Shown in pieces: positions 3,001-23,201 of a stretch of 23,622 nt of DNA (within the stretch, counting starts at the first letter, position 1; each line of letters opens with the position of its first letter). This DNA is from a virus, in IMG/VR virus record IMGVR_UViG_3300032224_000504, positions 1 through 23,622 of that record, one strand, 5' to 3'. A model generated the notes under the pieces. That model made no database searches. It saw only the letters and a list, made by a program, of their open reading frames with translations, and was not told the DNA's origin. A program made the position numbers and the translations under genes.

Positions 3001-5989
3001 CAAATGCATCAACCAAAATACCATTCTTAAATCGTGGTAAATTTGTGCTATCAAGTATTGTTAAATCTTGTTTGTTAACAGCAGATTGTTCTAGCAATGA
3101 CAATGATGTATAATATTCTAAGTTTTCAACACGCTTGTCAATTGCGCCAATATCACGCATTGTATAACGGCGATTGTCTTTGTATTCAACTCTAATTAAA
3201 GATGTATTGGCAACATACGCAGGCTCACGCAAGGTATACAAAGTCATTGCCCCATCTTTGTCTTTTGGTTCAACAGGAGTTAAGGAAGGAATGCCTTGAA
3301 TTACCTCAAATGTTCTATCTTTGTTTAATACTACCTTGTCAATTCTTGGTAAGTAGTATTGATAGTTTAGAATGATGTCGGAACCATTCTCAGGAATCTT
3401 AGGACCAGTCGTGGTTGAATCAACATCGAATGTGACGGTGTTTGCTGTTGTTGTGCTTGTTGGCGTTGCTCGGACAGGCCTAAAATCAAGGCAATCCGAA
3501 AGTTGGTAATTGTTGCCTGCACCAACAGATGAATATGTGGGAATAGAACCGTAATCATACCCACTATAAGAATCAACATCAAAGAAACCAGCACCAGACG
3601 AACTGAATAGGTTATATTTAACGACTAGGGGACCAACAGGAGTTGCTACACCAGCTTTCAAACTAATAGAAGCATGGTCATAATAAGAATCTCTTTGACC
3701 ATTATCTAGTGTGTAGCGTGAAGTGATATCTGTTGCAATAGCAGCATTAGCAACTGTAATTTGATTGCCATTAAAATCTAATACTGAAGAAACAGCTACA
3801 ACATCAGACACAAATAATGATTGTGCAGTTGCAGGTGTTTTAACAACAGTATTGGCCATAATGTGAGTTTGGCCTTGTGAAGCATAAAGAATTACACCGT
3901 TATTAGCAAACAATGCTGTGCCGCCACTTGTTTGAACGGTTGCATTTGCAGTTACAAAAGTTTTTGTTTTTGCTGATGGATTTGAAGAATCAATCGTTGC
4001 AACAATATTAGCAGTCATATTGTTACCAGAAGTAACAGTAATTTTACGAGTGCCTGTATCTACTGTAAATAGATTAGAAGGAATAATTTGACCAACAGTA
4101 TATGGTGAAGTACCAGATGATGTTACAACAACTGTATATTTTTCGTTTTTACTTGAAGTGCTTACAGCAGCAGAAATGGCTTCACCAGTACCTACTGAAA
4201 GTGTAGGTGATATTGAAGATGAAAAAGCTTGTGCTTCATACATTCTCTTATATGAGAAAGACAAATTACCAATAGTTCCACTAGCAACATAATTTTGACC
4301 AAGTGGCAATAATAGTGGCTCTAACTTAGTATCTGAAATAAATGTGTCATCGTAAGTTGTTGCTGGGTCTTTAGAAGCGCCATCAATATCAGCAGCTGCA
4401 ACACGAGTTGTCCCGCTTGTAACAGCTAATGATTTGATATCATTAACTTCAAAGTCAATAGACCATGTAGATTGCGTATTTGTTGTAGCAATAAATTGTT
4501 GAGATAATGTGATAACACCAGTAGCGCCATTATAATTTGTAATATATTTTGGAGTTTCACCAGCGCCAGGACCAGCAATGATACGAAGTTTAGCACCGGT
4601 GTATGCATTGTTCTGTGTAGAATAATATTGTCCAGCACCAGTATTGCCAATAGTAATTGTTGTAGTATTAGATGTTAATACATTTCCAGTTAATGAAGAA
4701 ACATTAACATCAAACAAGTATGTGCGATATTCATAAGTTGCGGAGTTTGATGTGTTTGAAGCCGCTTCAAATTCAATACTTTTTACACGAGCAGTACCAA
4801 TCTTTGTATTAGTAATTGTGTTTGTAGATGAAACATTAATTGAACCATTTGATACACAATGCAAATCAATAGTAGCTAAACTATTAATTGGAAATGTACC
4901 AAAGTGTGTATTTGAATAAACATAATAACCATAGTCAGCAGAAATACGTTTATTAGAAACATTATCTGTTGTTCTTGGTTTATTAAATGTAATTGTTGTT
5001 GGTCCAATTGTTTCGTGTTCGTAACCATAGACATATGCTTTACCTGGCGACAATACAACATTTGCCTTTGCGGTATTGGCAGCACTTGTGTCTAATGAAA
5101 GCTTAAATGGTCTTACTGTGTAGTTACCAGATTCATCGTATGTTCTACGAGCAAGAGTATCTTCTAATACCGCATACAATGGATATTTTACAGAATAGGT
5201 TAATGCGCCTTGTTCAACACGAGCAAGTTCAATAAATTGTGTATCATCGGTAGAATCTAAAGCACGAGTTGATAATACCAATGAAATTTTGTAGCGGTCG
5301 GAACCAGGTGCTTGAAAGTTTGAAGCATCTTGAGCAGGATCCAACAACGAAGTATCTTGTGTATATTCTACAACAGCTTCAGTAACTTCAAAACCAATTC
5401 TTGCATTAGCTGTTGCATTGTTATATTTTGATGTGGCAATAGTTTGTGCATCGTTCTTAATGAAAAAACCATCGTAATAGAATACACCATCATTTACAGA
5501 AAATGTTTGGCCTGTTCCAACGCCAGATGTTGAAACATTAGCATATGCAGGCGCAGTTTCAACTGTGGAAATTTTATCTCCAGAAGCAAAAGCAGTACCA
5601 TAAATCTGTTTGACTAATAGTGTTTTTGGATCACCTGTACCAGAATCAGCATCATAAACAACAACAACTTCACCACGCTTTGTTCCTGTGGAATCAGTAA
5701 TTGTTTTACCATTAAAATTTGTTACAGAAACAGCTAAACCAGAATAATCGGTATCTAATTTTAAGTATGTAGCATTTTGAAGAAAAGTTTGACCACCAGT
5801 TACAAGAGAACCATTTTTGAAAACATTATTACCAAAACGACTAATTTGGCTCTGTAAAAGAGTTTGTAATTGTGTTAACTCACGAGCTTGAACAGCATAA
5901 CCTGGCTTAAACAATAGACGAAGAAACTTTTTAGCTTCATCGAAGTCGTCATAGTATGGGTTGACATTAAAATTAGTATTTAACGACAT
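47..5989 (-). CDS. Large DUF4815-type baseplate/tail structural protein (1980 aa)
   Basis: A very long virion protein, probably part of the peripheral baseplate or a fibre attachment. The N-terminus, with NPYYDDFDEAKKFLRLLFKP followed by GYAVQARELTQLQTLLQSQI, is the hallmark of DUF4815 proteins found in tail clusters of T4-like marine phages. Around residues 450-515 and 1320-1380 are two copies of a GAG-x-x-K/x-I-T-x-Y module. Near residues 1500-1640 is a segment with AQTFLISP, QGIFLSKARFAFKSKD and ISEQPYGGSLFLSQN, which recurs in large phage baseplate proteins. Residues about 1759-1836 are a glycine-rich repeat shared with gp6, gp7 and gp8. The start is supported by a Shine-Dalgarno AAGGAA at 6003-5998, eight bases upstream. 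It follows gp8, where T4 has gp9-gp12, so it may replace some of those functions; that is inference. Confidence 0.85.
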   Translation of the reverse strand: MSLNTNFNVNPYYDDFDEAKKFLRLLFKPGYAVQARELTQLQTLLQSQISRFGNNVFKNGSLVTGGQTFLQNATYLKLDTDYSGLAVSVTNFNGKTITDSTGTKRGEVVVVYDADSGTGDPKTLLVKQIYGTAFASGDKISTVETAPAYANVSTSGVGTGQTFSVNDGVFYYDGFFIKNDAQTIATSKYNNATANARIGFEVTEAVVEYTQDTSLLDPAQDASNFQAPGSDRYKISLVLSTRALDSTDDTQFIELARVEQGALTYSVKYPLYAVLEDTLARRTYDESGNYTVRPFKLSLDTSAANTAKANVVLSPGKAYVYGYEHETIGPTTITFNKPRTTDNVSNKRISADYGYYVYSNTHFGTFPINSLATIDLHCVSNGSINVSSTNTITNTKIGTARVKSIEFEAASNTSNSATYEYRTYLFDVNVSSLTGNVLTSNTTTITIGNTGAGQYYSTQNNAYTGAKLRIIAGPGAGETPKYITNYNGATGVITLSQQFIATTNTQSTWSIDFEVNDIKSLAVTSGTTRVAAADIDGASKDPATTYDDTFISDTKLEPLLLPLGQNYVASGTIGNLSFSYKRMYEAQAFSSSISPTLSVGTGEAISAAVSTSSKNEKYTVVVTSSGTSPYTVGQIIPSNLFTVDTGTRKITVTSGNNMTANIVATIDSSNPSAKTKTFVTANATVQTSGGTALFANNGVILYASQGQTHIMANTVVKTPATAQSLFVSDVVAVSSVLDFNGNQITVANAAIATDITSRYTLDNGQRDSYYDHASISLKAGVATPVGPLVVKYNLFSSSGAGFFDVDSYSGYDYGSIPTYSSVGAGNNYQLSDCLDFRPVRATPTSTTTANTVTFDVDSTTTGPKIPENGSDIILNYQYYLPRIDKVVLNKDRTFEVIQGIPSLTPVEPKDKDGAMTLYTLREPAYVANTSLIRVEYKDNRRYTMRDIGAIDKRVENLEYYTSLSLLEQSAVNKQDLTILDSTNLPRFKNGILVDAFDGHSVADVAKNDYLSSIDPKNKELRPSFNISSHLLTFDSATSSNFMKNGPLVTANAAHSAFIDQNKASKSINVNPFNVINFLGKIQLDPASDIWIDTNKQPDVLVNLQGDKDAWNIITANAYSYEWGDWSTYWTGTTTDSPAYRGWLGATGRYEVVYGTETTTTSSSQTRTGVKTTVVPTTITQSLGDRVVDVSIIPYMRNRNVLFTGSDFKPDTTLYSFFDNVNIDKYVARANKFKIATNNLGFRTEIGNPETVSVVNTATSTTNATAYVVRTSNTEAFIISVNPSSALNGSTMNLVGSSTGTTVRVVGYDHYSGNAASATGNTIVLNVDAFGANNTTDYVGSPIYIVSGTGAGQKGTITTYTAATRNVAISGAWTTIPSTDSIYSIGNLKTTMAGDVAGVFNIPSATFRVGEKNFRMVDNSTGDLGSSSTNGDATFFAQGILQSTENTIISTTVPTIQRASVTDNRVVSSTTSRQVVIGYWDPLAQTFLISPVNYPQGIFLSKARFAFKSKDTTVPVTLQVRPATNGYPSSSIIYPYSTVTLTPDKVNTTTSPNLDTASKYTEFEFDAPIYLQPGEHSFVLLANSNKYEVYVAEIGKLDTVSGRQISEQPYGGSLFLSQNGSTWTADQNSDLMFRLFRYVFSTDPVQATFKINYPSSNTVYDLTHLITSDVTVANTSLSYQFNSEKSTGGMTGYKNITPLTDFQMNDGFGRRVLNPATGNTTLTVKATLQTSNPDISPFLDTSRYGVIAVENIINDLPLSNSGITLTSGGTGYSTNANAVVTITGGGGSGATAAAVVTANVVTSIYLTNPGSGYETSPTFTLVDANTTPGTGATITYNGEDKKSGGNSYVRYLTRKVVLADGFDSGDLRVYLTAYKPAAANIRVYYKLLSAADTATFDDKTWQLMTQLSNANFASAGPDDYREIAYAPGVGGSANNSVNYTTSSTAYNSFRTFAIKIVLTGTDTTDVPKVRDFRAIALPAGA

Positions 5990-6003: not shown

Positions 6004-7552
6004 AGAATCTAATAACAAACTTAACATTTTCAGCTTGTCCTTCTGCTCTTTCAACTTTTTGTATATTTTCAGCATACATGATATCACCACTATATGGTTG
6101 GAACTCTGGTAAATTTTGTTTAACAATTGTTCTGTTTACACCAGAACTAGCACCAATCAAAATACCACCGACCGCAGCTTGACCTCTAACTTTAGTCAAT
6201 CTAACTTGGTTTGAAGATTGTGCATTAACAAAACCATAAAAATAGGCATTGTTTGCAGAACTACCTTGGTAGACAAATTCGTTCAATGTAAAATCAGTAC
6301 CTGCAACCAATGTCAAATTGGTTGTCTGTGAGATAACAGTATTTGCATTAGAACTTGTTACTGGTGATGTTTCACCATATTTATATGGGTCCCTTAGAAG
6401 GCCATATTGTCTAAATGATGTGCTAGTGGAAATAAGTCCACCTTCTGTTGAATCTACTAATCCAATTTTATCAGCAATCATTACATTTCCACCATTCAGT
6501 TCTTTAGCGGGATTGTATGCATGGCCGTATTGTGGAGGTAAAGCAACACGAGCATTTGCACCTGTGCCAGAACCATATACAATGGCATTTGCATATGTAT
6601 ATCCTGATCCTGTTACACTTACTGTAATTTTTGAGATTGCACGATTGGCGATTGTAGCAGAAGCTTCTGTACCAGAACCATCACCACTAACATAAACTCT
6701 TGTTGTAAATGTTAAATTGTTTGCTACTGTTCCGCCACCGTTTGCGGTTGTGGCGGTAGAAATTGTAATTGTAGAACTAATAGCATTAACTGCGGTAACT
6801 AAAGTGGATGTTGCAATACCTGTTCCACTAACATACATATTTGCAGCCACATTTGTTGTGTTGGCCAAATTAATTGATGTTACGCCTGGACCAAATGCAG
6901 TAGATAAAATAGAAGGTTCCGCATATCCAGTTCCGCCATTTGTAACAATGATGGTAGTTAATTCACCACTTACAATGTCAGCAGAACTTACATTATAGTC
7001 TAATTTTGATGTGGAAACTGGTGCAGGTATCCAATCGGTTGTCAAAAACTTATTAGAAGGTTTGACATTATACATATACTTCCAAATGTAACCGTCAGCA
7101 GTTTTAATTGTACCGTTTGCGGTGGTGTAATCACCAGTTGGCATAACAGTAGAATTAGCGGAAGCGTTGTTTGACAAACATTTATAGACATTTCGGTCTG
7201 TGGTAATAACATACATTGGTTTAACATTCAATGTTGTATTGCCGGTTGTCAAATCATCTATTGTAATTAAATCATCATATTGTTTGTATTTTGTGGATCC
7301 TGTCCAATTGACCCTAGGAACAACCAATTCCACATCGTTACCAGTAACTTTTTTGGCTGCAAACATATTGTCCCAAACTGTCTTTTCATCGGATGTAGAA
7401 TCAACGATGGAGTTTGGTGACGATTCGTTTGCATAAGGAACATGGTTTCCAATAAAAACATAACCAACTGTTGCAGCTGGTTCTGAGAACGATTCTTTGA
7501 ATTGTTCTGCGTTATTGAACGAGAGTTTCTTTGAGGTATAAAAAGTTGCCAT
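6002..7552 (-). CDS. 8: Baseplate wedge protein gp8
   Basis: Wedge component that in T4 joins gp10, gp7, gp6 and gp53 in each of six wedges. The T4 gp8 landmarks I recall are all present in order: VWDNMFAAKKV, then VELVVPRVNW (T4 has VIPRRDW), then VYKCLSN (T4 VYRCLD), then TADGYIWKYMYNV (T4 GDGYVWEYLFEI), then a proline-rich WIPAP. At 516 residues it is longer than T4 gp8 (about 334). The excess lies mostly after residue about 200, where glycine-rich segments such as GGTGYAEPSI and GSGYTYANAIVYGSGTGANA occur. The gene sits between gp7 and the DUF4815 gene with 12-13 base gaps, matching the T4 order 6-7-8. The start has only a weak AAGAA upstream; the same AAGAATTAATATG string precedes gp53. 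Confidence 0.8.
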   Translation of the reverse strand: MATFYTSKKLSFNNAEQFKESFSEPAATVGYVFIGNHVPYANESSPNSIVDSTSDEKTVWDNMFAAKKVTGNDVELVVPRVNWTGSTKYKQYDDLITIDDLTTGNTTLNVKPMYVITTDRNVYKCLSNNASANSTVMPTGDYTTANGTIKTADGYIWKYMYNVKPSNKFLTTDWIPAPVSTSKLDYNVSSADIVSGELTTIIVTNGGTGYAEPSILSTAFGPGVTSINLANTTNVAANMYVSGTGIATSTLVTAVNAISSTITISTATTANGGGTVANNLTFTTRVYVSGDGSGTEASATIANRAISKITVSVTGSGYTYANAIVYGSGTGANARVALPPQYGHAYNPAKELNGGNVMIADKIGLVDSTEGGLISTSTSFRQYGLLRDPYKYGETSPVTSSNANTVISQTTNLTLVAGTDFTLNEFVYQGSSANNAYFYGFVNAQSSNQVRLTKVRGQAAVGGILIGASSGVNRTIVKQNLPEFQPYSGDIMYAENIQKVERAEGQAENVKFVIRF

Positions 7553-7562
7553 ATTAATTCTT

Positions 7563-7570
7563 TATTTATG
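7563..7570 (-). promoter_or_regulatory. Possible late promoter CATAAATA before gp8
   Basis: Read on the minus strand, CATAAATA differs from the T4 late -10 element TATAAATA only in the first base, and the ATG of gp8 follows after ten bases. It covers the gp7 stop codon. In AT-rich DNA this could be chance, and the implied leader would be only a few bases long. Confidence 0.25.
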
Positions 7571-10064
7571 CCACTATTATTAAATCTTGAACATTTGATG
7601 TATATGTAAATGGTGTGGAAACTGTCAATAGGGTATTACTGTAAATGGCATTAACCGTTCTAATTTCAGAGTTAACCGCAATCTGTGAACCAACAGTAAT
7701 GATTCCAGTAACCACATTAAACAATGTGCCTGTTCCCATCACATACATACTGCCGTTTGTGTTTACAGTACCAGCAACACTATTGCTTATAGTTATGCTA
7801 CTTCTGGAAAGATTGTTTGCGGCCACAACTTCATCAATCTTAAATTCTGCATACTCCACAAAACCAGCTGGATGAATAAGGTTTTTAAAGACATCTTTAA
7901 ATTTACCAAATTCGACTTTAGAAGAAAGAACATAGGCATAATCAATATAGAAATTACGACCTTGAATAACTCTTTCTGAAGCAGAAAGAATAGAATCGGA
8001 TGTCGTCCAACGACCAGGAAATTCAACATAACTAGGTTCAACTGAAGCATTGGCTCTTGCAGCTCTATTACCACTTCCAGTCAAATCAATTTCTGGTGGA
8101 TATTCATATCCTTGACCAGCATCAACAATACGAATTTTTAAAATTTCACCTGGATTTTTGTCTGCCGTTGCAAATAGATTTTCACCATCACCAAGTATTC
8201 CTTGGACTGCAATATTAGCATTTGCACCAGATGTAGAAGATACTGTTACAGAAGGAAGTTTATTAAAAGCATAATTGATACCACCAATTGGCAACAATTC
8301 AAATTTACCAAGTTTTCTATTTGTTTCAGTATAACCAAAATTTACATTGGTTGTCAATGAAGTATTAGAACTAATAGCATTAACCCAACTGATTTGGTTG
8401 TTAACCATAATCTGGTCACCAATCTCCAATTCTCTTTGAAATAATGTGCCTGTTCCAGTAAGAGTGTTTAATGTTGAAGTAACATTAACTGTGCCAGTAA
8501 GTCTTGGTGGTTGTAATTGAACTTTAGTAATTGCACCACTTGTAGATACATTAGTTACAGCAGCAGCTGCACCAAAACCAAACGACATTGGTTGAGTTAA
8601 TGTGAATACAAGTTCATCACCAATGGCATAGTTTGTTCCGCCACTATTGATTGTTAATCTACCTAAAGAGCCTGTTGAATAAACGTGCTCAACTTCTCCA
8701 CTAGCAGTATATGGTGCAGATTCAGCATCCAAAGTTGGAACAGTAGAAAAAATTGCGTTAGCAAAAAGAATTGCCACATTGGTAATTGGACCAATACCTG
8801 TCAATGGTGCAAATGTAAAAGCGTCAATTAATCTTGTTGCAACATTTTCCGTAACAGCACTTGGAAATCCATAATTTGCATCACTAATAGTTTTTGTAGT
8901 GTAGTCACCAATCTTATCAGTATTAACAATAAAACTATTAGCTGCATTGGCACCTGAAGTATCAACTCCGTCAATTGCCAAAACTAATGAAGCATTTGCA
9001 GTTGTACCAATCAAGTTTACATTTGAACCAATTTTAAAACCTGAACCACCAGCAAGAACACGAATTTGATTAATGTAACCAGAGAATACTTCTGAAACCA
9101 ATGCTTCAGCTTGTTTAACAGCATTACCACCAGTAATAACTACGGGGTCACCAACATTATAACTTGCGCCACCATCAATAACATTAATAGTTCTTAAAAT
9201 TGATAATCCTAAAACTTCAATATAAATTAATGTGGAATCATCAGGATCAATAATAGTTAATGTTCCAACTTCACCATCGGCAAATTGACCAACCAAAGTT
9301 TTTGTATTTACATATAATTCAAATGAACCAACACCATTAACCGTTTTTTGGCCAGTTCTTTCAACAATAGCATATGCATTAGATGTTGTACCAACAACTT
9401 TTCTATTGTTTAATAGTTCATAATTAAAATTATTATAAAGAATTCTTATTTTAGCATTACTACTTGGTGCAGTATTGAATACAAGTTTGCGGCTTTCTTT
9501 ACGAATTCTAAAATTAGTTGTCTGAATAACATCATCCACATAAACAACAATTTCAGTAGAATCAACAACTTGTGCTAGTTTGAATATAGTTGTTGTACCG
9601 TTGCCTGTATAGGTGCTGTAAACATCTTGTGAAATACGAAAGGCTTTTTCAATTAACCACTTACCATCTGAAGCTTTAAGAACACTTGATTTGGGTTGAA
9701 TAACTTCCACATCTTCATTGAAAAGAAGTCTGAATAGAAGTTTAAATGATTTTTCATTACCTTTAGCAAGATACAAAGGCAATAAATTTTTAATTAATAA
9801 AGCTTTATCAACAGCAACTGTTTTTGGAACTAAAGAAGCGTAAGTATTAAAAAAGTTATCTTCAAATTGAACAATAGATGAATCAACATCAGAAACATAC
9901 CGCAAATCTTTAGCTTGCGATGTTAAATCATTATTTTTGCCGGTTTGTTTTGTTTCCAAAAATTCATAATATGCTTCCAAAAAAGCAATAAAATTAGGAT
10001 ATTCTTCCCGAACAAACTCCGGTACCTGACGATTAATCAGTAAGGAGGTCTTTTGATTGGACAT
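7566..10064 (-). CDS. 7: Baseplate wedge protein gp7-like (832 aa)
   Basis: Assigned mainly by position between gp6 and gp8, where T4 encodes the wedge-organising protein gp7 (1032 aa). The N-terminus, with the motif EEYPNFIAFLEAYYEFLE, is characteristic of the large baseplate protein at this place in T4-like marine phages. The middle carries at least five short glycine-aromatic repeats, for example GGASYNVGDPVVITGG, GGSGFKIGSNVNLIG and GGTNYAIGDELVFT. Two copies of a GTGTLF-type module are present, one near residues 520-575 and one at the extreme C-terminus (about 768-830). Its ATG overlaps the gp6 stop by one base (TAATG), which indicates translational coupling. Direct similarity to T4 gp7 is not evident by eye, so the gp7 name rests on synteny. 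Confidence 0.7.
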   Translation of the reverse strand: MSNQKTSLLINRQVPEFVREEYPNFIAFLEAYYEFLETKQTGKNNDLTSQAKDLRYVSDVDSSIVQFEDNFFNTYASLVPKTVAVDKALLIKNLLPLYLAKGNEKSFKLLFRLLFNEDVEVIQPKSSVLKASDGKWLIEKAFRISQDVYSTYTGNGTTTIFKLAQVVDSTEIVVYVDDVIQTTNFRIRKESRKLVFNTAPSSNAKIRILYNNFNYELLNNRKVVGTTSNAYAIVERTGQKTVNGVGSFELYVNTKTLVGQFADGEVGTLTIIDPDDSTLIYIEVLGLSILRTINVIDGGASYNVGDPVVITGGNAVKQAEALVSEVFSGYINQIRVLAGGSGFKIGSNVNLIGTTANASLVLAIDGVDTSGANAANSFIVNTDKIGDYTTKTISDANYGFPSAVTENVATRLIDAFTFAPLTGIGPITNVAILFANAIFSTVPTLDAESAPYTASGEVEHVYSTGSLGRLTINSGGTNYAIGDELVFTLTQPMSFGFGAAAAVTNVSTSGAITKVQLQPPRLTGTVNVTSTLNTLTGTGTLFQRELEIGDQIMVNNQISWVNAISSNTSLTTNVNFGYTETNRKLGKFELLPIGGINYAFNKLPSVTVSSTSGANANIAVQGILGDGENLFATADKNPGEILKIRIVDAGQGYEYPPEIDLTGSGNRAARANASVEPSYVEFPGRWTTSDSILSASERVIQGRNFYIDYAYVLSSKVEFGKFKDVFKNLIHPAGFVEYAEFKIDEVVAANNLSRSSITISNSVAGTVNTNGSMYVMGTGTLFNVVTGIITVGSQIAVNSEIRTVNAIYSNTLLTVSTPFTYTSNVQDLIIVA

Positions 10065-17942: not shown

Positions 17943-18707
17943 ATGTCATTTTCACCAAATTTATTTTTATCGAATATAAGAGCAAAGGACGGACTTGCAA
18001 AGCCTTCTCGCTTTGAGGTTATTCTTCCTATTCCACCATACATCAATAGTTTTGTTGGCAATTCAATCATTAATAAGATTTTGAATTTCCCTAACTCTGT
18101 ATTCACCGATGTGAGTGATGCCATTGGTTCGGCGTTTGGTCGTCAAGGAACACAAGACGAATATTCAAAGACATCCAATTCTTCTTTGTCCAGATATTTA
18201 GCATTACAATGTGAAAACGCTGAATTGCCTGGTAAAACATTACAGACAGCTGATGTTAAGATTTACGGTCCCATATTTAAGGTACCATATCAAACACAAT
18301 ACGCTGATACAGCACTTACATTTTTATGTACCAATGAGTTCTATGAAAGAAAGTTATTTGACCGTTGGATGGAATCAATTCATCCAGGCGATACAAATAA
18401 CATGAGATTTCCAAAAGGTGCTCAATCACGGTACATGACAAACATTAAAATTATACAGTATGATGAGTTTATTAAACAGATTCATGCTGTCGAATTGATA
18501 GATGCTTTTCCAATTGGAATTGCACCACAACAGTTAAGTTGGTCAGAAGATGGGTTTCATCGTCTATCAGTCCAATTTGCTTATCAAAAATACCGCACCA
18601 TTTACGAGGGGTCTTATGACCTGGCTGCGGCTGCAACTGCGTTATTTGGTAGTGCTGCGGTATCAGCATTGCCATTAGGTAAGGCGATTACGAGAAATAC
18701 TTTTTAA
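17943..18707 (+). CDS. 54: gp19-fold tail tube protein, candidate tube initiator gp54
   Basis: Tube-like protein. Its segments align in order with T4 gp19: LAKPSRFEVILPIP (gp19 FARPNLFQVEI), CENAELPGKTLQ, a strand-helix unit with ADTALTFLCTNEFYERKLFD and RWMESIH, and a C-terminal part with IKIIQYDEFIKQIHAVELID then AFPIGIAPQQLSWSEDG and HRLSVQFAYQKYRT. At 254 residues it is larger than gp19 (163) and nearer to gp54 (320). An extra N-terminal loop (about 40-75) and a C-terminal Ala-rich tail account for the difference. Lying among baseplate assembly genes rather than beside the sheath gene, it is more likely gp54, the baseplate-tube initiator, than the major tube protein. AGGA about ten bases upstream supports the start. 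Confidence 0.75.
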   Translation: MSFSPNLFLSNIRAKDGLAKPSRFEVILPIPPYINSFVGNSIINKILNFPNSVFTDVSDAIGSAFGRQGTQDEYSKTSNSSLSRYLALQCENAELPGKTLQTADVKIYGPIFKVPYQTQYADTALTFLCTNEFYERKLFDRWMESIHPGDTNNMRFPKGAQSRYMTNIKIIQYDEFIKQIHAVELIDAFPIGIAPQQLSWSEDGFHRLSVQFAYQKYRTIYEGSYDLAAAATALFGSAAVSALPLGKAITRNTF

Positions 18708-18726: not shown

Positions 18727-19458
18727 ATGCTACCAAAGTTAGACATTCCAACATATACGGTGAAACTGATATCATCTGGTAAAACTATCAGATATCGTCC
18801 GTTTCTTGTGAAGGAACAAAAATTATTCTTAATGGCTTCTGAGGCAGATGATGCTAAAGAAACGATTAATACTATCCGTCAGGTATTGAAGAATTGTATT
18901 TTGGATGAGATTGATGTTGACAATCTTCCAACATTTGATTTGGAATACTTGTTCATGCACCTGCGTGCTAGGTCAGTAGAAGAAGTTGTAGAATTAAAAT
19001 ATAAATGCAACAATGAAGTTGATAATGAAGAAGGTGTTAAGATTAAGTGTAACGGATCAGTTGCCTTTAAATTAAACATCCTTGAAGTAGAACCAACAAT
19101 CAATCCAGAACATACTAACAAAGTTCAGCTAACTGAAAATCTTGGCATTTGCCTAAAGTATCCTACTTTTGAGATGATTCAGAAATATGATACGATTGGT
19201 GAAGATGAAGTTATGACCAGAATTTTGGTTGATTGTATTGATTACATTTATGATAAAGACCAAATCTACTATGCCAAAGATTCCAGTAAAGAAGAATTGG
19301 AAGAATTTGTAGATAACCTACAACAAAAAGATTTAGAAAAGATTAAAAAATTCTTTGATACGATGCCTGAAATTAAAAAAGATGTCCACTTCAAATGTCC
19401 AAAATGTGCATATGAAGAAGATATTACGATTAAGGGTCTCCAAAGTTTTTTCGTCTAA
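18727..19458 (+). CDS. 26: gp26-family baseplate hub assembly protein (T4_baseplate family)
   Basis: Similar to the T4 gp26 family of hub assembly factors, which act in assembly and are not major virion components. The N-terminal half holds IRYRPFLVKEQKLFLMASE and the block around LPTFDLEYLFMHLRARSVEE, which is typical of the family. Four cysteines (C94, C108, and the C224-P-K-C227 pair) suggest a zinc ribbon. The length is 243 residues (T4 gp26 208). A good GAGG ribosome site lies seven bases before the ATG. The last codons cover a T-TTT-TTC heptamer (19446-19452) overlapping a -1 frame ORF, so a longer product of about 306 residues may also be made. The position directly before the tape-measure-like gene is that of a tail assembly chaperone. 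Confidence 0.85.
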   Translation: MLPKLDIPTYTVKLISSGKTIRYRPFLVKEQKLFLMASEADDAKETINTIRQVLKNCILDEIDVDNLPTFDLEYLFMHLRARSVEEVVELKYKCNNEVDNEEGVKIKCNGSVAFKLNILEVEPTINPEHTNKVQLTENLGICLKYPTFEMIQKYDTIGEDEVMTRILVDCIDYIYDKDQIYYAKDSSKEELEEFVDNLQQKDLEKIKKFFDTMPEIKKDVHFKCPKCAYEEDITIKGLQSFFV

Positions 19459-19503
19459 TTTTTCGTTATGATACATTAGGTAACTACTATCAGACGAACT
19501 TTG
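19441..19503 (+). promoter_or_regulatory. Predicted hairpin spanning the gp26 stop and slippery site
   Basis: TTCGTCT at 19450-19456 is exactly complementary to AGACGAA at 19492-19498, and CAAAG at 19441-19445 continues the pairing with CTTTG at 19499-19503. This gives 12 base pairs interrupted by a four-T bulge at 19446-19449, around a 35-base loop. The slippery T-TTT-TTC lies within the 5' arm. A translating ribosome would melt this stem, so it is not a classical downstream stimulator; a role in frameshifting or in coupling is inference. Confidence 0.35.
19446..19452 (+). promoter_or_regulatory. Candidate -1 ribosomal frameshift site T-TTT-TTC
   Basis: In the reading frame of the gp26-family gene this heptamer is T TTT TTC, a canonical X-XXY-YYZ slippery pattern. 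Both tRNAs can re-pair after sliding back one base. It sits two codons before the stop at 19456-19458 and inside the overlap with the -1 ORF, which is open from 19434. Slippage would continue into FRLIFRYDTLGNYYQTN. Confidence 0.5.
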
Positions 19504-19646
19504 CTTTAATGCAACACCACAAGTATAGTTTGACTGAGCTTGAGAATATGTTACCTTGGGAAAGAAATATTTACTTGGGACTTTTAATGAAGTACCTTGA
19601 AGAAGAAAGAGAACGCATTAAATTGCAGAAACAAGCGAAACGATAA
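19452..19646 (+). CDS. Small -1-frame ORF, probable frameshift extension of the gp26-family protein
   Basis: Sixty-four codons in the -1 frame relative to the upstream gene, reading RLIFRYDTLGNYYQTNFALM, then QHHKYSLTELENMLPWER and NIYLGLLMKYLEEERERIKL, with a charged C-terminus. It looks like real protein: a helical, Trp-containing WERNIYLGLLMKYLEEE unit as in tail assembly chaperone C-terminal domains. No credible start exists. The frame has no ATG, GTG or TTG before an internal ATG at 19509, which lacks a Shine-Dalgarno and would remove the YYQTNFALM block. A rare ATT at 19458 is the only alternative. Its TAA overlaps the next ATG by one base. The coordinates given start at the first codon after -1 slippage; the fused product would be 242 + 64 residues. 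It is too short to be T4 gp51 (249 aa). Confidence 0.65.
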   Translation, partial: RLIFRYDTLGNYYQTNFALMQHHKYSLTELENMLPWERNIYLGLLMKYLEEERERIKLQKQAKR

Positions 19647-21436
19647 TGGCAAAAAAACCTATCCTCGAAGCTTTAGCACAAGAACTTGGTTACAAGGATG
19701 CTAAAGCATTAAAAAAGAAAATGACCGAAGGTCATGGCGATGACTTTGCCGGCAGTGTAAAGAGCCGCCTTGAGGAAGGTGCCGGCTTTGGCGAAGCATT
19801 TAAAGGTGGTTTTTCTGATGCTAAAAAAGGACTTGAAAAGAAGTTAGACCCAAAAAATATTAAAAAAGAACTTGTTAAAGGTGCATTTGGTGGAGATGAT
19901 ATACTCTCTGCCTATATGCGTGGCAAGTTTAGAGATAAATCTGAAGATAAAAAAGAAGAAGATAAAAACTCTCCTTCTGCTGAAGGTTCGACTGAAGGTG
20001 GTAGTTTTACTGAATTAAATAGTTTCTTAAAAATTATTGCTAAAAATTCTATGTCGTTGCATTTGATGGCAAGAGATATGAATGTGCTTCGGCAAAACAT
20101 AGTTAAACTTGTTAAATTGGAAGCAAAAGATTATAATAAAGGCAAAAGCAAACGAGACCAAATTGAAGCACGAACAGGTGCCGACACATACTTTCTCCGT
20201 GCTGATGAAGCTGAAACAAAACTGGAAGTTGATAGACAAAAATATGCACCTAAGCCAGTAGCTAAAGAAGGTGAAAAGAAAGATCCAGAAAAAGAGAGTG
20301 GTATATTAGACACAATTCTTGGTTTCTTTAAAAATGGATTACTTGCAGGAATCATGTCTATTTTTAATCCTGCAAACTTGTTAAAAGTTTTAGGTAAAGT
20401 CTTTTTAATTACTGCCATATTTGCTGGATTATTTCAAGGTATTACAGCTGCATTTGACAAATGGAAAGAAACTGGTTCTCTTAAAGATGCTATTATTGCA
20501 GGTTTAGGTGGAGTTTTAGACTTTTTAACATTTGGTTTATTTGGTGAAGATAGCGTTAAAAAGATGTTTGATGCTGTTCAAGGATTTGTTACACCTATTA
20601 TTCAATCTATTGCTGATGTTATTACCTCAATGAAAGATTGGGTAGCAAATAATATTGGTATTCCTAAAGTCAGTTTAGGTACTTGGTTTGGAAAAGAAAG
20701 GTCAATTGGTCCATACTATCCATTTAAAAATAATCCAACTAGTGAAGAACCACAGACTAGCACAGCACCACAAATTGGTGATGTTAAAACTGTATCGGCA
20801 CCTCCTGCTCCTGGCGCACCTGAAGCGACTCAACAAATTGATGCTAGCGGTTTATCTAAAACAGCTAGTGAGCTTGAAAGACAAATTACTGGTGACAATG
20901 GCACCGTAATAAAATCTGAAACTCAAATTGGGACTTCACCACAATTACAACTACCAAGTAATCCTGAAGAAGCTAAAAAAGTTCTTATTGAACAGGCATC
21001 TAAAGTTCTTGGTATGCCTTTGCCTGACCCCACTAAACCAACACCTGAAGGTTCAAGTGGCAATCCACAATTAGATGAAACAATTATATCAAAGGTTGAA
21101 TCTATAATTAAGCAAAAAGGTTTATCTGCACCACCATCAGGTGGAGGTTCGGTTGAATCTGCACCATCAGGTGGCGGCAGTTCTGGTAACTTGTCTGCAC
21201 CATCAGGTGGTTCTTCACCATCTGCTGAATCTGATTCACCAGCATCAAGTGGTGCGGCTTTATCAACCGCATCCGCTGATGTTGCTGAAATGCAAAGAAT
21301 GGAGTCTGCTGCTGATATGGGTGGTTCAGTCAATTCACAAACAATTACAAACAACAGTAATTCATCTGGTAAAGAACCAACACCACAAATTGCTGATGTT
21401 TATGATACAGAATTTGCAAAGTTAATTGCAGCTTAA
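19646..21436 (+). CDS. 29: Tape-measure-like baseplate hub protein, gp29 candidate (596 aa)
   Basis: Probably sets tail length and occupies the tube lumen and hub. The length is almost that of T4 gp29 (590), and it follows the gp26-family gene as a tape measure should. The N-terminal 125 residues are Lys/Glu-rich helix. Residues about 125-205 share a block with the next gene (SLHLMARDMNVLRQN, then TGADTYFLRADEAETKLEVD). Residues about 225-335 are hydrophobic, with IFNPANLLKVLGKVFLITAI then FAGLFQGITAAFDKWKETGS, which may be the membrane-active segment typical of tape measures. Residues about 365-550 are Pro/Ser/Gly/Thr-rich with three SAP-PSGG repeats. The C-terminus, with NSQTITNNSNSSG, resembles the Asn-rich end of its neighbour. 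Which of the two paralogs is the true tape measure is not settled by sequence. Confidence 0.7.
   Translation: MAKKPILEALAQELGYKDAKALKKKMTEGHGDDFAGSVKSRLEEGAGFGEAFKGGFSDAKKGLEKKLDPKNIKKELVKGAFGGDDILSAYMRGKFRDKSEDKKEEDKNSPSAEGSTEGGSFTELNSFLKIIAKNSMSLHLMARDMNVLRQNIVKLVKLEAKDYNKGKSKRDQIEARTGADTYFLRADEAETKLEVDRQKYAPKPVAKEGEKKDPEKESGILDTILGFFKNGLLAGIMSIFNPANLLKVLGKVFLITAIFAGLFQGITAAFDKWKETGSLKDAIIAGLGGVLDFLTFGLFGEDSVKKMFDAVQGFVTPIIQSIADVITSMKDWVANNIGIPKVSLGTWFGKERSIGPYYPFKNNPTSEEPQTSTAPQIGDVKTVSAPPAPGAPEATQQIDASGLSKTASELERQITGDNGTVIKSETQIGTSPQLQLPSNPEEAKKVLIEQASKVLGMPLPDPTKPTPEGSSGNPQLDETIISKVESIIKQKGLSAPPSGGGSVESAPSGGGSSGNLSAPSGGSSPSAESDSPASSGAALSTASADVAEMQRMESAADMGGSVNSQTITNNSNSSGKEPTPQIADVYDTEFAKLIAA
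21125..21210 (+). repeat. Three short direct repeats encoding SAP(P)SGG in the gp29-like gene
   Basis: TCTGCACCATCAGGTGG occurs exactly at 21158-21174 and 21194-21210, and with an extra CAC codon-length insertion at 21125-21144. The spacing is about 35 bases. The repeats encode a flexible Ser/Ala/Pro/Gly linker near residues 494-522 and could vary in copy number by slippage. Confidence 0.7.
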
Positions 21437-21437
21437 T

Positions 21438-23201
21438 ATGGCAAGTAAATCTCCAACAATAGATAGAACAGTTAGTTCTTCTCCTTCCGAATCCGTAATT
21501 TTAGCTAAAATAATTGCTAGAAGTTTTCTTAGTTTACCGTATATTGCTAGAGATTTAAATGTCGCTAGGCAAAACCTTCAAAAGATGGTTAAAATGCGTG
21601 GCGGTGAAGCATCAAAAGGCGCTGATACTCATTTTCTAAAAGCAGGTGAAGCTGAAAAGAAGCTAGCAGTAGAGCAAGAAAGAGGAACTGCTAAGAAAGT
21701 AACACCAGTCAAAAAAGAAGAAGAAGGTACTGGACTATTTGGTAAAACTGGCAAAAAAGTTTTTGATAAATTCAAATCAACAAAAGCTGGTGGTAAAGCC
21801 GTATCTATTGGTGAAAAACTACTAAACGGTTTTAAAGCAATTTTCAACCCTAAGAATTTTATGAAGATTCTTGGGCGCCTTGCATTGCCACTAATGATAT
21901 TTTCAGCCTTATTTGAAGGATTTACTTCCGCATTTGATACTTGGAAAGAAACTGGTTCTATTTGGGAAGCATTTAAGGCAGGCATTGGTGGTATAGTTGA
22001 ATTCTTCACCTTTGGTTTGATTGATAAGAAAATGGTTTCCGATTTCTATGATTGGGGTCTTGGTGCGATTGAAAAGATAATGAAATCTGTAGCTGATTTC
22101 TTTGGATTCGGTGATGTCTTTACAGAACAGTTTGCTAAAGTTAAAAAGTTTTTGGGGGTATCAATTCAACCTAAAAATCAACCACAAACTCCTTCTATTG
22201 ATAAACCAAAAGAAGGTGAAGGACAAGCTAAAAAAGACAAAGAACTTTCTAAGCAAGAAGTAGAAAGATTAGAAAAAGAAAAACAATATACTGGTAAAGA
22301 TGAGATTGTCCGTAAAAGAATGGGTCTTCCACCAAAGCCCGCTTCTGAAATGGAACCAACTCCAACTGCACCCGCTGCAGCCGAAACACAACCATCTAAA
22401 GCACCATCAGCAGCACCAGTAAGTCCTTCTGATACTAAACCAGTTAAAGTTGGAGAAAGTGCTGGTAAATCCGCCATGATTAAGGCGATGGATGATAACA
22501 AGATTACTGACCCAACTGCTCGTGCTTCTATTATGGCACAAGTGGGCCATGAGTCTGGTAACTTTACTACATTGAGTGAGAATCTTAATTATAAACCAGC
22601 AACACTATTAAAAATATTTCCAAAATACTTTAGGTCACCAGAAGAAGCACAAGAAACAGCTTCACAGGGACCACAAGCAATTGCTAATCGTGTTTATGGT
22701 GGAAGAATGGGTAACACGGATGCTGGCGATGGCTTCAAATATCGTGGTCGTGGATTCATTCAATTAACCGGTAAATCAAACTACAAGAAATTTGGTGTTG
22801 ATAGTGATCCTGATTCTGTATCACAAATGGGTAAAGCCGCTGAAACTGCTATCCAGTATATGAAAGGTTACAAAGGTGATTGGGGTGATATTAAGGCGGT
22901 GACCAAATTCGTTAATGGTGGTTACATTGGTCTTGAAGATAGAGCAAAACACTTTCAAGCATATCTAAACGACCCAACAATTACTAAAGTTTCTGGTGCT
23001 CAGACTGCTATTAGTGGTGGCGGTGTTGCAACCGCTTCTAATGATGTGGCATCAAGTCAAAGGCAACAAGCTAAACCATCCGCACCCGTGGTAGTTAATA
23101 ATACTACTGTCAATAACAATAACTCTAGTAGAACTCAACTAGCATCACAGCCTAAAGATAATAACTCTACAAACGGTGCATTAGTAGCAAGAGCCACGTA
23201 A
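21438..23201 (+). CDS. Tape-measure paralog fused to a GH19-type peptidoglycan hydrolase
   Basis: Start chosen at the ATG at 21438, one base past the upstream TAA, rather than an in-frame TTG at 21426; this gives 587 residues. The N-terminal half is a paralog of the previous protein: SLPYIARDLNVARQN, GADTHFLKAGEAEKKLAV, then IFNPKNFMKILGRLALPLMI and SAFDTWKETGS. A charged linker (about 240-345) leads to a GH19 chitinase-like domain at about 346-510: IMAQVGHESGNFTTLSENLN with the likely catalytic acids E372 and E381, NYKPATLLKIFPKYF, IANRVYGGRMGNTDAGDG and YRGRGFIQLTGKSNY. This is the arrangement of phage GH19 endolysins, but there is no separate lysis context, so a virion-associated wall-degrading enzyme is more likely. 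The C-terminus is Asn-rich (VVVNNTTVNNNNSS). Confidence 0.8.
   Translation: MASKSPTIDRTVSSSPSESVILAKIIARSFLSLPYIARDLNVARQNLQKMVKMRGGEASKGADTHFLKAGEAEKKLAVEQERGTAKKVTPVKKEEEGTGLFGKTGKKVFDKFKSTKAGGKAVSIGEKLLNGFKAIFNPKNFMKILGRLALPLMIFSALFEGFTSAFDTWKETGSIWEAFKAGIGGIVEFFTFGLIDKKMVSDFYDWGLGAIEKIMKSVADFFGFGDVFTEQFAKVKKFLGVSIQPKNQPQTPSIDKPKEGEGQAKKDKELSKQEVERLEKEKQYTGKDEIVRKRMGLPPKPASEMEPTPTAPAAAETQPSKAPSAAPVSPSDTKPVKVGESAGKSAMIKAMDDNKITDPTARASIMAQVGHESGNFTTLSENLNYKPATLLKIFPKYFRSPEEAQETASQGPQAIANRVYGGRMGNTDAGDGFKYRGRGFIQLTGKSNYKKFGVDSDPDSVSQMGKAAETAIQYMKGYKGDWGDIKAVTKFVNGGYIGLEDRAKHFQAYLNDPTITKVSGAQTAISGGGVATASNDVASSQRQQAKPSAPVVVNNTTVNNNNSSRTQLASQPKDNNSTNGALVARAT

Follow-up and report, generated by a model that had tools for sequence, protein, structure and literature searches.

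We propose that a single gp26-family gene of a T4-like virus is decoded with a -1 programmed ribosomal frameshift and in this way gives a TAC-N/TAC-NC chaperone pair, a reading to which we assign a probability of roughly 0.9. The proposal had been put forward in the initial annotation of this DNA, and it is supported by the retention of a slippery heptamer among relatives, a switch of codon phase at that heptamer, the missing start codons in the -1 frame, the colinearity of the frameshift product with T4 gp51, and the pattern of copy numbers of the family. According to the scenario we favour, most ribosomes would translate the gene (18727-19458) up to its stop and release a 243-aa TAC-N, the equivalent of gp26. 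A minority, probably paused by pairing with an SD-like AAGGG about 9 nt upstream, would have both Phe-tRNAs slip one base back on T-TTT-TTC and would continue in the -1 frame (CGT CTA ATT...), yielding a 306-aa TAC-NC colinear with T4 gp51. Both chaperones would engage the tape-measure protein and the tail tube in tail assembly and, like gpG and gpGT of lambda, would be absent from the virion. That frameshifting occurs, how often it does so, and what part the SD-like element plays are points that we infer from the sequences.

The window, i.e., the whole stretch of DNA analysed here, is a 23,622-base IMG/VR metagenomic viral contig whose tail and baseplate gene set is T4-like in profile searches (Table 1). 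Its 23.6 kb contain one gp26-family gene, with a PF12322 match of 209.9 bits against a cut-off of 24.5 and a strong SD (-7.1 kcal/mol) upstream of the start at 18727. This gene lies directly 3' of the tail tube gene, and the next ORF fits a tape measure by position, size and hydrophobic helices. Judging from position, ORF 19646-21436 is likely the tape measure, and the earlier description of the junction as lying just before that gene has to be qualified accordingly; profile searches returned no family match for this ORF. The same ORF and ORF 21426-23201 are tandem paralogues sharing 40% identity over 211 residues, the hydrophobic stretch included; the second one also has an endolysin/chitinase-like domain (phrog_181), and its better start is the ATG at 21438, just past the stop of the first. 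Elsewhere in the window, the -1 frame after the gene at 7566-10064 is open for 299 nt (7267-7565, minus strand), within the next gene.

Table 1. Coordinates of the gp26-family gene, the candidate frameshift elements and the neighbouring genes in the window.
Feature	Position	Strand	Evidence or remark
Tail tube protein gene, gp19-like, upstream neighbour	17943..18707	+	phrog_45 tail tube E=5e-34; PF06841 weak
gp26-family gene, short product (TAC-N), 243 aa	18727..19458	+	PF12322 E=5e-62; phrog_150 E=7e-71
SD-like AAGGG, candidate dnaX-type stimulator, 9 nt upstream of heptamer	19432..19436	+	window energy -5.0
Slippery heptamer T-TTT-TTC, in phase with 0 frame	19446..19452	+	first six bases T in all 102 representatives; seventh C/T
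-1 extension, 64 aa + stop, predicted C-terminal part of TAC-NC; gp51 C-terminus homologue	19452..19646	+	phrog_634 E=3e-27
Weak hairpin UCUAAU/AUUAGG, 1 nt past heptamer	19454..19480	+	z=-1.3, 88-nt fold
0-frame stop TAA, one codon past heptamer	19456..19458	+	
TAATG, -1-frame stop overlapping start of next gene, without clear SD	19644..19648	+	SD energy -1.6 vs -7.1 (gp26 start)
596-aa ORF in tape-measure position	19646..21436	+	position and hydropathy; hydrophobic helices near residues 243-300

At its 3' end the gp26-family gene reads AGT TTT TTC GTC TAA in the 0 frame, while the -1 frame, which opens at 19434 and closes with a TAA at 19644-19646, is translated as GSPKFFRLIFRYDTLGNYYQTNFALMQHHKYSLTELENMLPWERNIYLGLLMKYLEEERERIKLQKQAKR. 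Re-derivation from the sequence returned the very coordinates that the initial annotation had given for the gene, the in-phase heptamer and the -1 frame, and translation through the junction confirmed a frameshift product of 306 aa. The observation that no usable start lies upstream of the protein-like part of the -1 frame also held, the earliest ATG being the M of FALMQ, well inside the conserved core that has already started by then. Because in-phase XXXYYYZ motifs occur 43 times per 7553 codons of the window genes (0.57%; 5 of them TTTTTTN), and because the chance of 63 successive codons without a stop in a -1 frame is about 2e-4, the window sequence by itself is only moderate, suggestive evidence for a frameshift.

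In order to place the junction among its relatives, IMG/VR was scanned with the genes of the window, S-PM2, Mosig and Cr30, which gave 236 junction-spanning loci, 181 of them distinct; codon-phase and start-codon analyses were carried out on 102 representatives of less than 85% identity. This comparison of related junctions, suggested in the initial annotation, spoke for the frameshift. An in-phase T-TTT-TTC or T-TTT-TTT near the 0-frame stop, together with a long -1 ORF, is present in all 236 loci, with the six T of the heptamer invariant in 102/102 representatives, and no ATG, GTG or TTG precedes the heptamer in the -1 frame of any of the 102. In the Pelagibacter-phage (Mosig-type) branch the 0 frame runs on to a stop 31 nt past the heptamer, yet the heptamer and the -1 protein are unchanged. 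Distant annotated phages of Synechococcus, Prochlorococcus, Pelagibacter and Caulobacter, as well as those of Sinorhizobium, Rhizobium, Vibrio and Pseudoalteromonas, carry T-TTT-TT(C/T/G/A) at the same place. Given both amino-acid sequences, the heptamer is almost forced by the genetic code, and its conservation alone is worth less than appears; the argument for a frameshift is carried by the coding character of the -1 frame from the heptamer onward. Among the 102 representatives, nucleotide variability peaks at position 3 of the 0 frame before the heptamer and at position 3 of the -1 frame after it. This switch of phase at the heptamer indicates that FFRLIFRYD...MLPWERNIY is under selection as a -1-frame protein from the heptamer onward.

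The same data bear on the idea that the -1 ORF forms a small gene of its own, gp51, with ribosomes either initiating internally or reinitiating after termination at the gp26 stop; we give this idea only a slim chance. Most GenBank records do annotate a distinct gp51, and an ATG overlapping the gp26 stop (TRATG) is found in several alphaproteobacterial, Vibrio and other phages, in which an additional separate C-terminal product may be made. However, in addition to the starts missing upstream of the heptamer, 53 of the 102 representatives, the window branch included, have no -1-frame start before +60 nt past it, and the conserved -1 coding begins at the heptamer, before any available start. The annotated gp51 starts are inconsistent among relatives and truncate conserved residues, and T4 gp51 holds both parts in a single chain. 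In 10/102 representatives, the -1 frame is already closed directly before the heptamer. Internal initiation of a separate gene was thus rejected as the main mechanism, its starts being absent or unconserved, and AUU at 19458 was rejected as a non-standard start, since ACA or ACT stands there in some relatives (L040, L079).

If RNA polymerase slipped on the T6 run, the two frames would also be joined, but this appears even less probable than a separate gene. A run of six or seven T is present in all loci except those of the Ackermannviridae and their near relatives, but six T is short for transcriptional slippage, Ackermannviridae homologues such as those of Marshall and Kevin have a run of four T only, and an SD-like element at ribosomal spacing as well as downstream hairpins are features of ribosomal frameshifting. 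With pairing energies computed with the E. coli 16S tail, the SD-like tract has a family mean of -6.2 kcal/mol as against -4.9 for synonymous shuffles (p=5e-8) and -1.9 for other windows of the same genes, and RNA structure from +6 to +53 is stronger than in synonymous shuffles when the whole set is taken together (p=8e-14; no excess in a control stretch), both p-values being too small because related phages were treated as independent. In S-PM2-type phages, a 12-bp hairpin with compensatory pairs begins 9 nt past the heptamer. RNAalifold over all 102 representatives found no family-wide hairpin at the right distance, and the hairpins are branch-specific: the downstream hairpin is above synonymous expectation in the cyanophage and pelagiphage branches, whereas the window branch has no clear excess. 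For that reason, the upstream SD-like element is the better candidate in the window branch. It stands at close to the spacing of the stimulator of E. coli dnaX, where an SD-like element lies about 10 nt upstream of the heptamer A-AAA-AAG and a hairpin follows downstream; the gene and the heptamer are different ones, and the hairpin is weak in the window branch. The hairpin at 19454-19480 of the window, too near the heptamer and without clear excess over synonymous shuffles, was rejected and is probably not a stimulator.

In the Ackermannviridae, a homologous -1 ORF (phrog_634 E=0.0026; phrog_9633) follows N-NTT-TTC, which is not a canonical heptamer. A -1 ORF that encodes an MPW motif and matches phrog_9633, as well as phrog_634 weakly in Marshall, was seen after N-NTT-TTC in a mostly unannotated stretch following gp26 in four loci from Ackermannviridae and a Vibrio phage (L088, 3232-3402; L262; L263; L265), and a non-canonical frameshift may be hidden in these loci. 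Finally, errors of sequencing or assembly, or decay of the gene, as might be suspected at a homopolymer site of a metagenomic contig, have a negligible probability, with the arrangement shared by 236 loci and cultured isolates and with the -1 frame under purifying selection.

The proposed frameshift also bears on the relation of the window to T4. T4 gp26 and gp51 are PF12322 paralogues (PHROG 150, 634), gp51 adding the phrog_634 C-terminal part, and the fusion predicted for the window can be aligned to T4 gp51 across 245 columns at an hhalign probability of 99.3%, with no gap at the junction (SFFRLI vs DVFKLL). PF12322 is present in one copy in each of the 19 other phage records, complete or near-complete, that were examined outside the T4 type, and in two copies in T4, Aeromonas phage Aes012 and the T4-like IMG/VR genome G001. 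Because the alignment spans the junction and one gene stands against two, the predicted frameshift fusion is the counterpart of gp51 and the 243-aa product that of gp26. The products thus belong to the same family and correspond through the junction; the difference is that T4 has two separate, divergently transcribed paralogues on opposite strands, whereas the window has one gene and a probable -1 frameshift. The breadth of the single-gene form suggests that it may be the ancestral one.

T4 genetics and homology together point to a chaperone role of the pair. In T4, both gp26 and gp51 count as chaperones of hub assembly, and gp51 does not occur in the particle (PMC3004832). The lambda proteins gpG and gpGT bind the tape measure, the T part binds the tail tube protein, and the virion contains neither chaperone (PMC5009743). 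A G/GT-like pair in a T4-like lineage, as envisaged from the start, agrees well with the gp51 colinearity, the copy numbers and the place beside the tail tube gene. As in lambda, a short chaperone with a minor -1 extension would be encoded between the tail tube and tape-measure genes, but gp26 is larger, and the window heptamer T-TTT-TTC differs from the G-GGA-AAG of lambda. For the TAC locus of Vandenendeviridae/Andersonviridae, which precedes the tape measure, a -1 frameshift has likewise been predicted from a poly-T motif and an open -1 frame, but the locus belongs to other phage families, and its site is given as GTTTTT, not as a full XXXYYYZ (PMC12846349). When the AF2 model of the 243-aa gp26-family protein (pLDDT 88.6) was compared by Foldseek with 350,542 PDB chains, the HK97 chaperone 2ob9_B came at rank 2 (E=0.93, TM 0.44 by target) and 2ob9_A at rank 25, so the likeness of the model to the HK97 tail assembly chaperone is only suggestive; its best BFVD matches were gp26-like baseplate proteins. 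A T4-type gp51 from IMG/VR, a natural fusion, gave no credible PDB match when folded, and sequence search for solved homologues returned none that was credible.

Without a frameshift, ribosomes terminate 188 nt before the end of the -1 frame. Because of the TAATG overlap and the lack of a clear SD, translation of the gene in the tape-measure position may depend on frameshifted ribosomes, and among the window-branch representatives listed, TAATG or TAAATG recurs at the start of the next gene with the SD weak or absent. It is conceivable, if rather doubtful, that the slip site also sets the supply of tape measure, in which case the frameshift would fix the ratio of short chaperone to long chaperone to tape measure.

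Vladimirov, Gautam and Davidson (2022) reportedly identified gp26 and gp51 as the tail assembly chaperones of T4-like phages and, judging by the title, proposed a mechanism other than frameshifting; the remark in the initial annotation that no standard description was known for T4-type gp26 has to be corrected in this respect. Our search of the open literature found no description of cyanophage gp26 frameshifting. A passage of the PRFect paper mentions separate genes in 'some T4-like phages' (PMC10885494), and a passage of the Adele paper cites Vladimirov et al. 2022 for poly-T slippery sequences within TAC-N genes of T4-like phages (PMC12846349). The papers citing that work imply frameshifting in some T4-like phages.

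As for the deposited records, 731 of them match the -1 ORF, including T4-type genomes where it is genuinely part of one chain, and cyanophage records routinely list it as a gene of its own, 'gp51'. In S-WAM1 (L082), ACG-2014e (L087) and S-BM3 (L089), no gene is annotated between gp26 and the next ORF, and the -1 extension has been missed. For S-WAM1, gp26 (locus 1845-2522) has been given a start at 1935; its PF12322 match extends back to record position 5658 (locus 1845), so that the true start probably lies upstream of the deposited one.

The standard review of Atkins et al. (2016) describes G/GT frameshifting as a conserved trait of long-tailed phages, 'except T4' (PMC5009743). The present data indicate that this exception concerns T4, which has two genes instead, and its close relatives, and that the wider T4-like group of cyanophages, pelagiphages, alphaproteobacterial phages and Vibrio phages would keep the frameshifted single gene. 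In cyanophage-type records, the separate annotation 'gp51 baseplate hub assembly catalyst' probably stands for the frameshift product.
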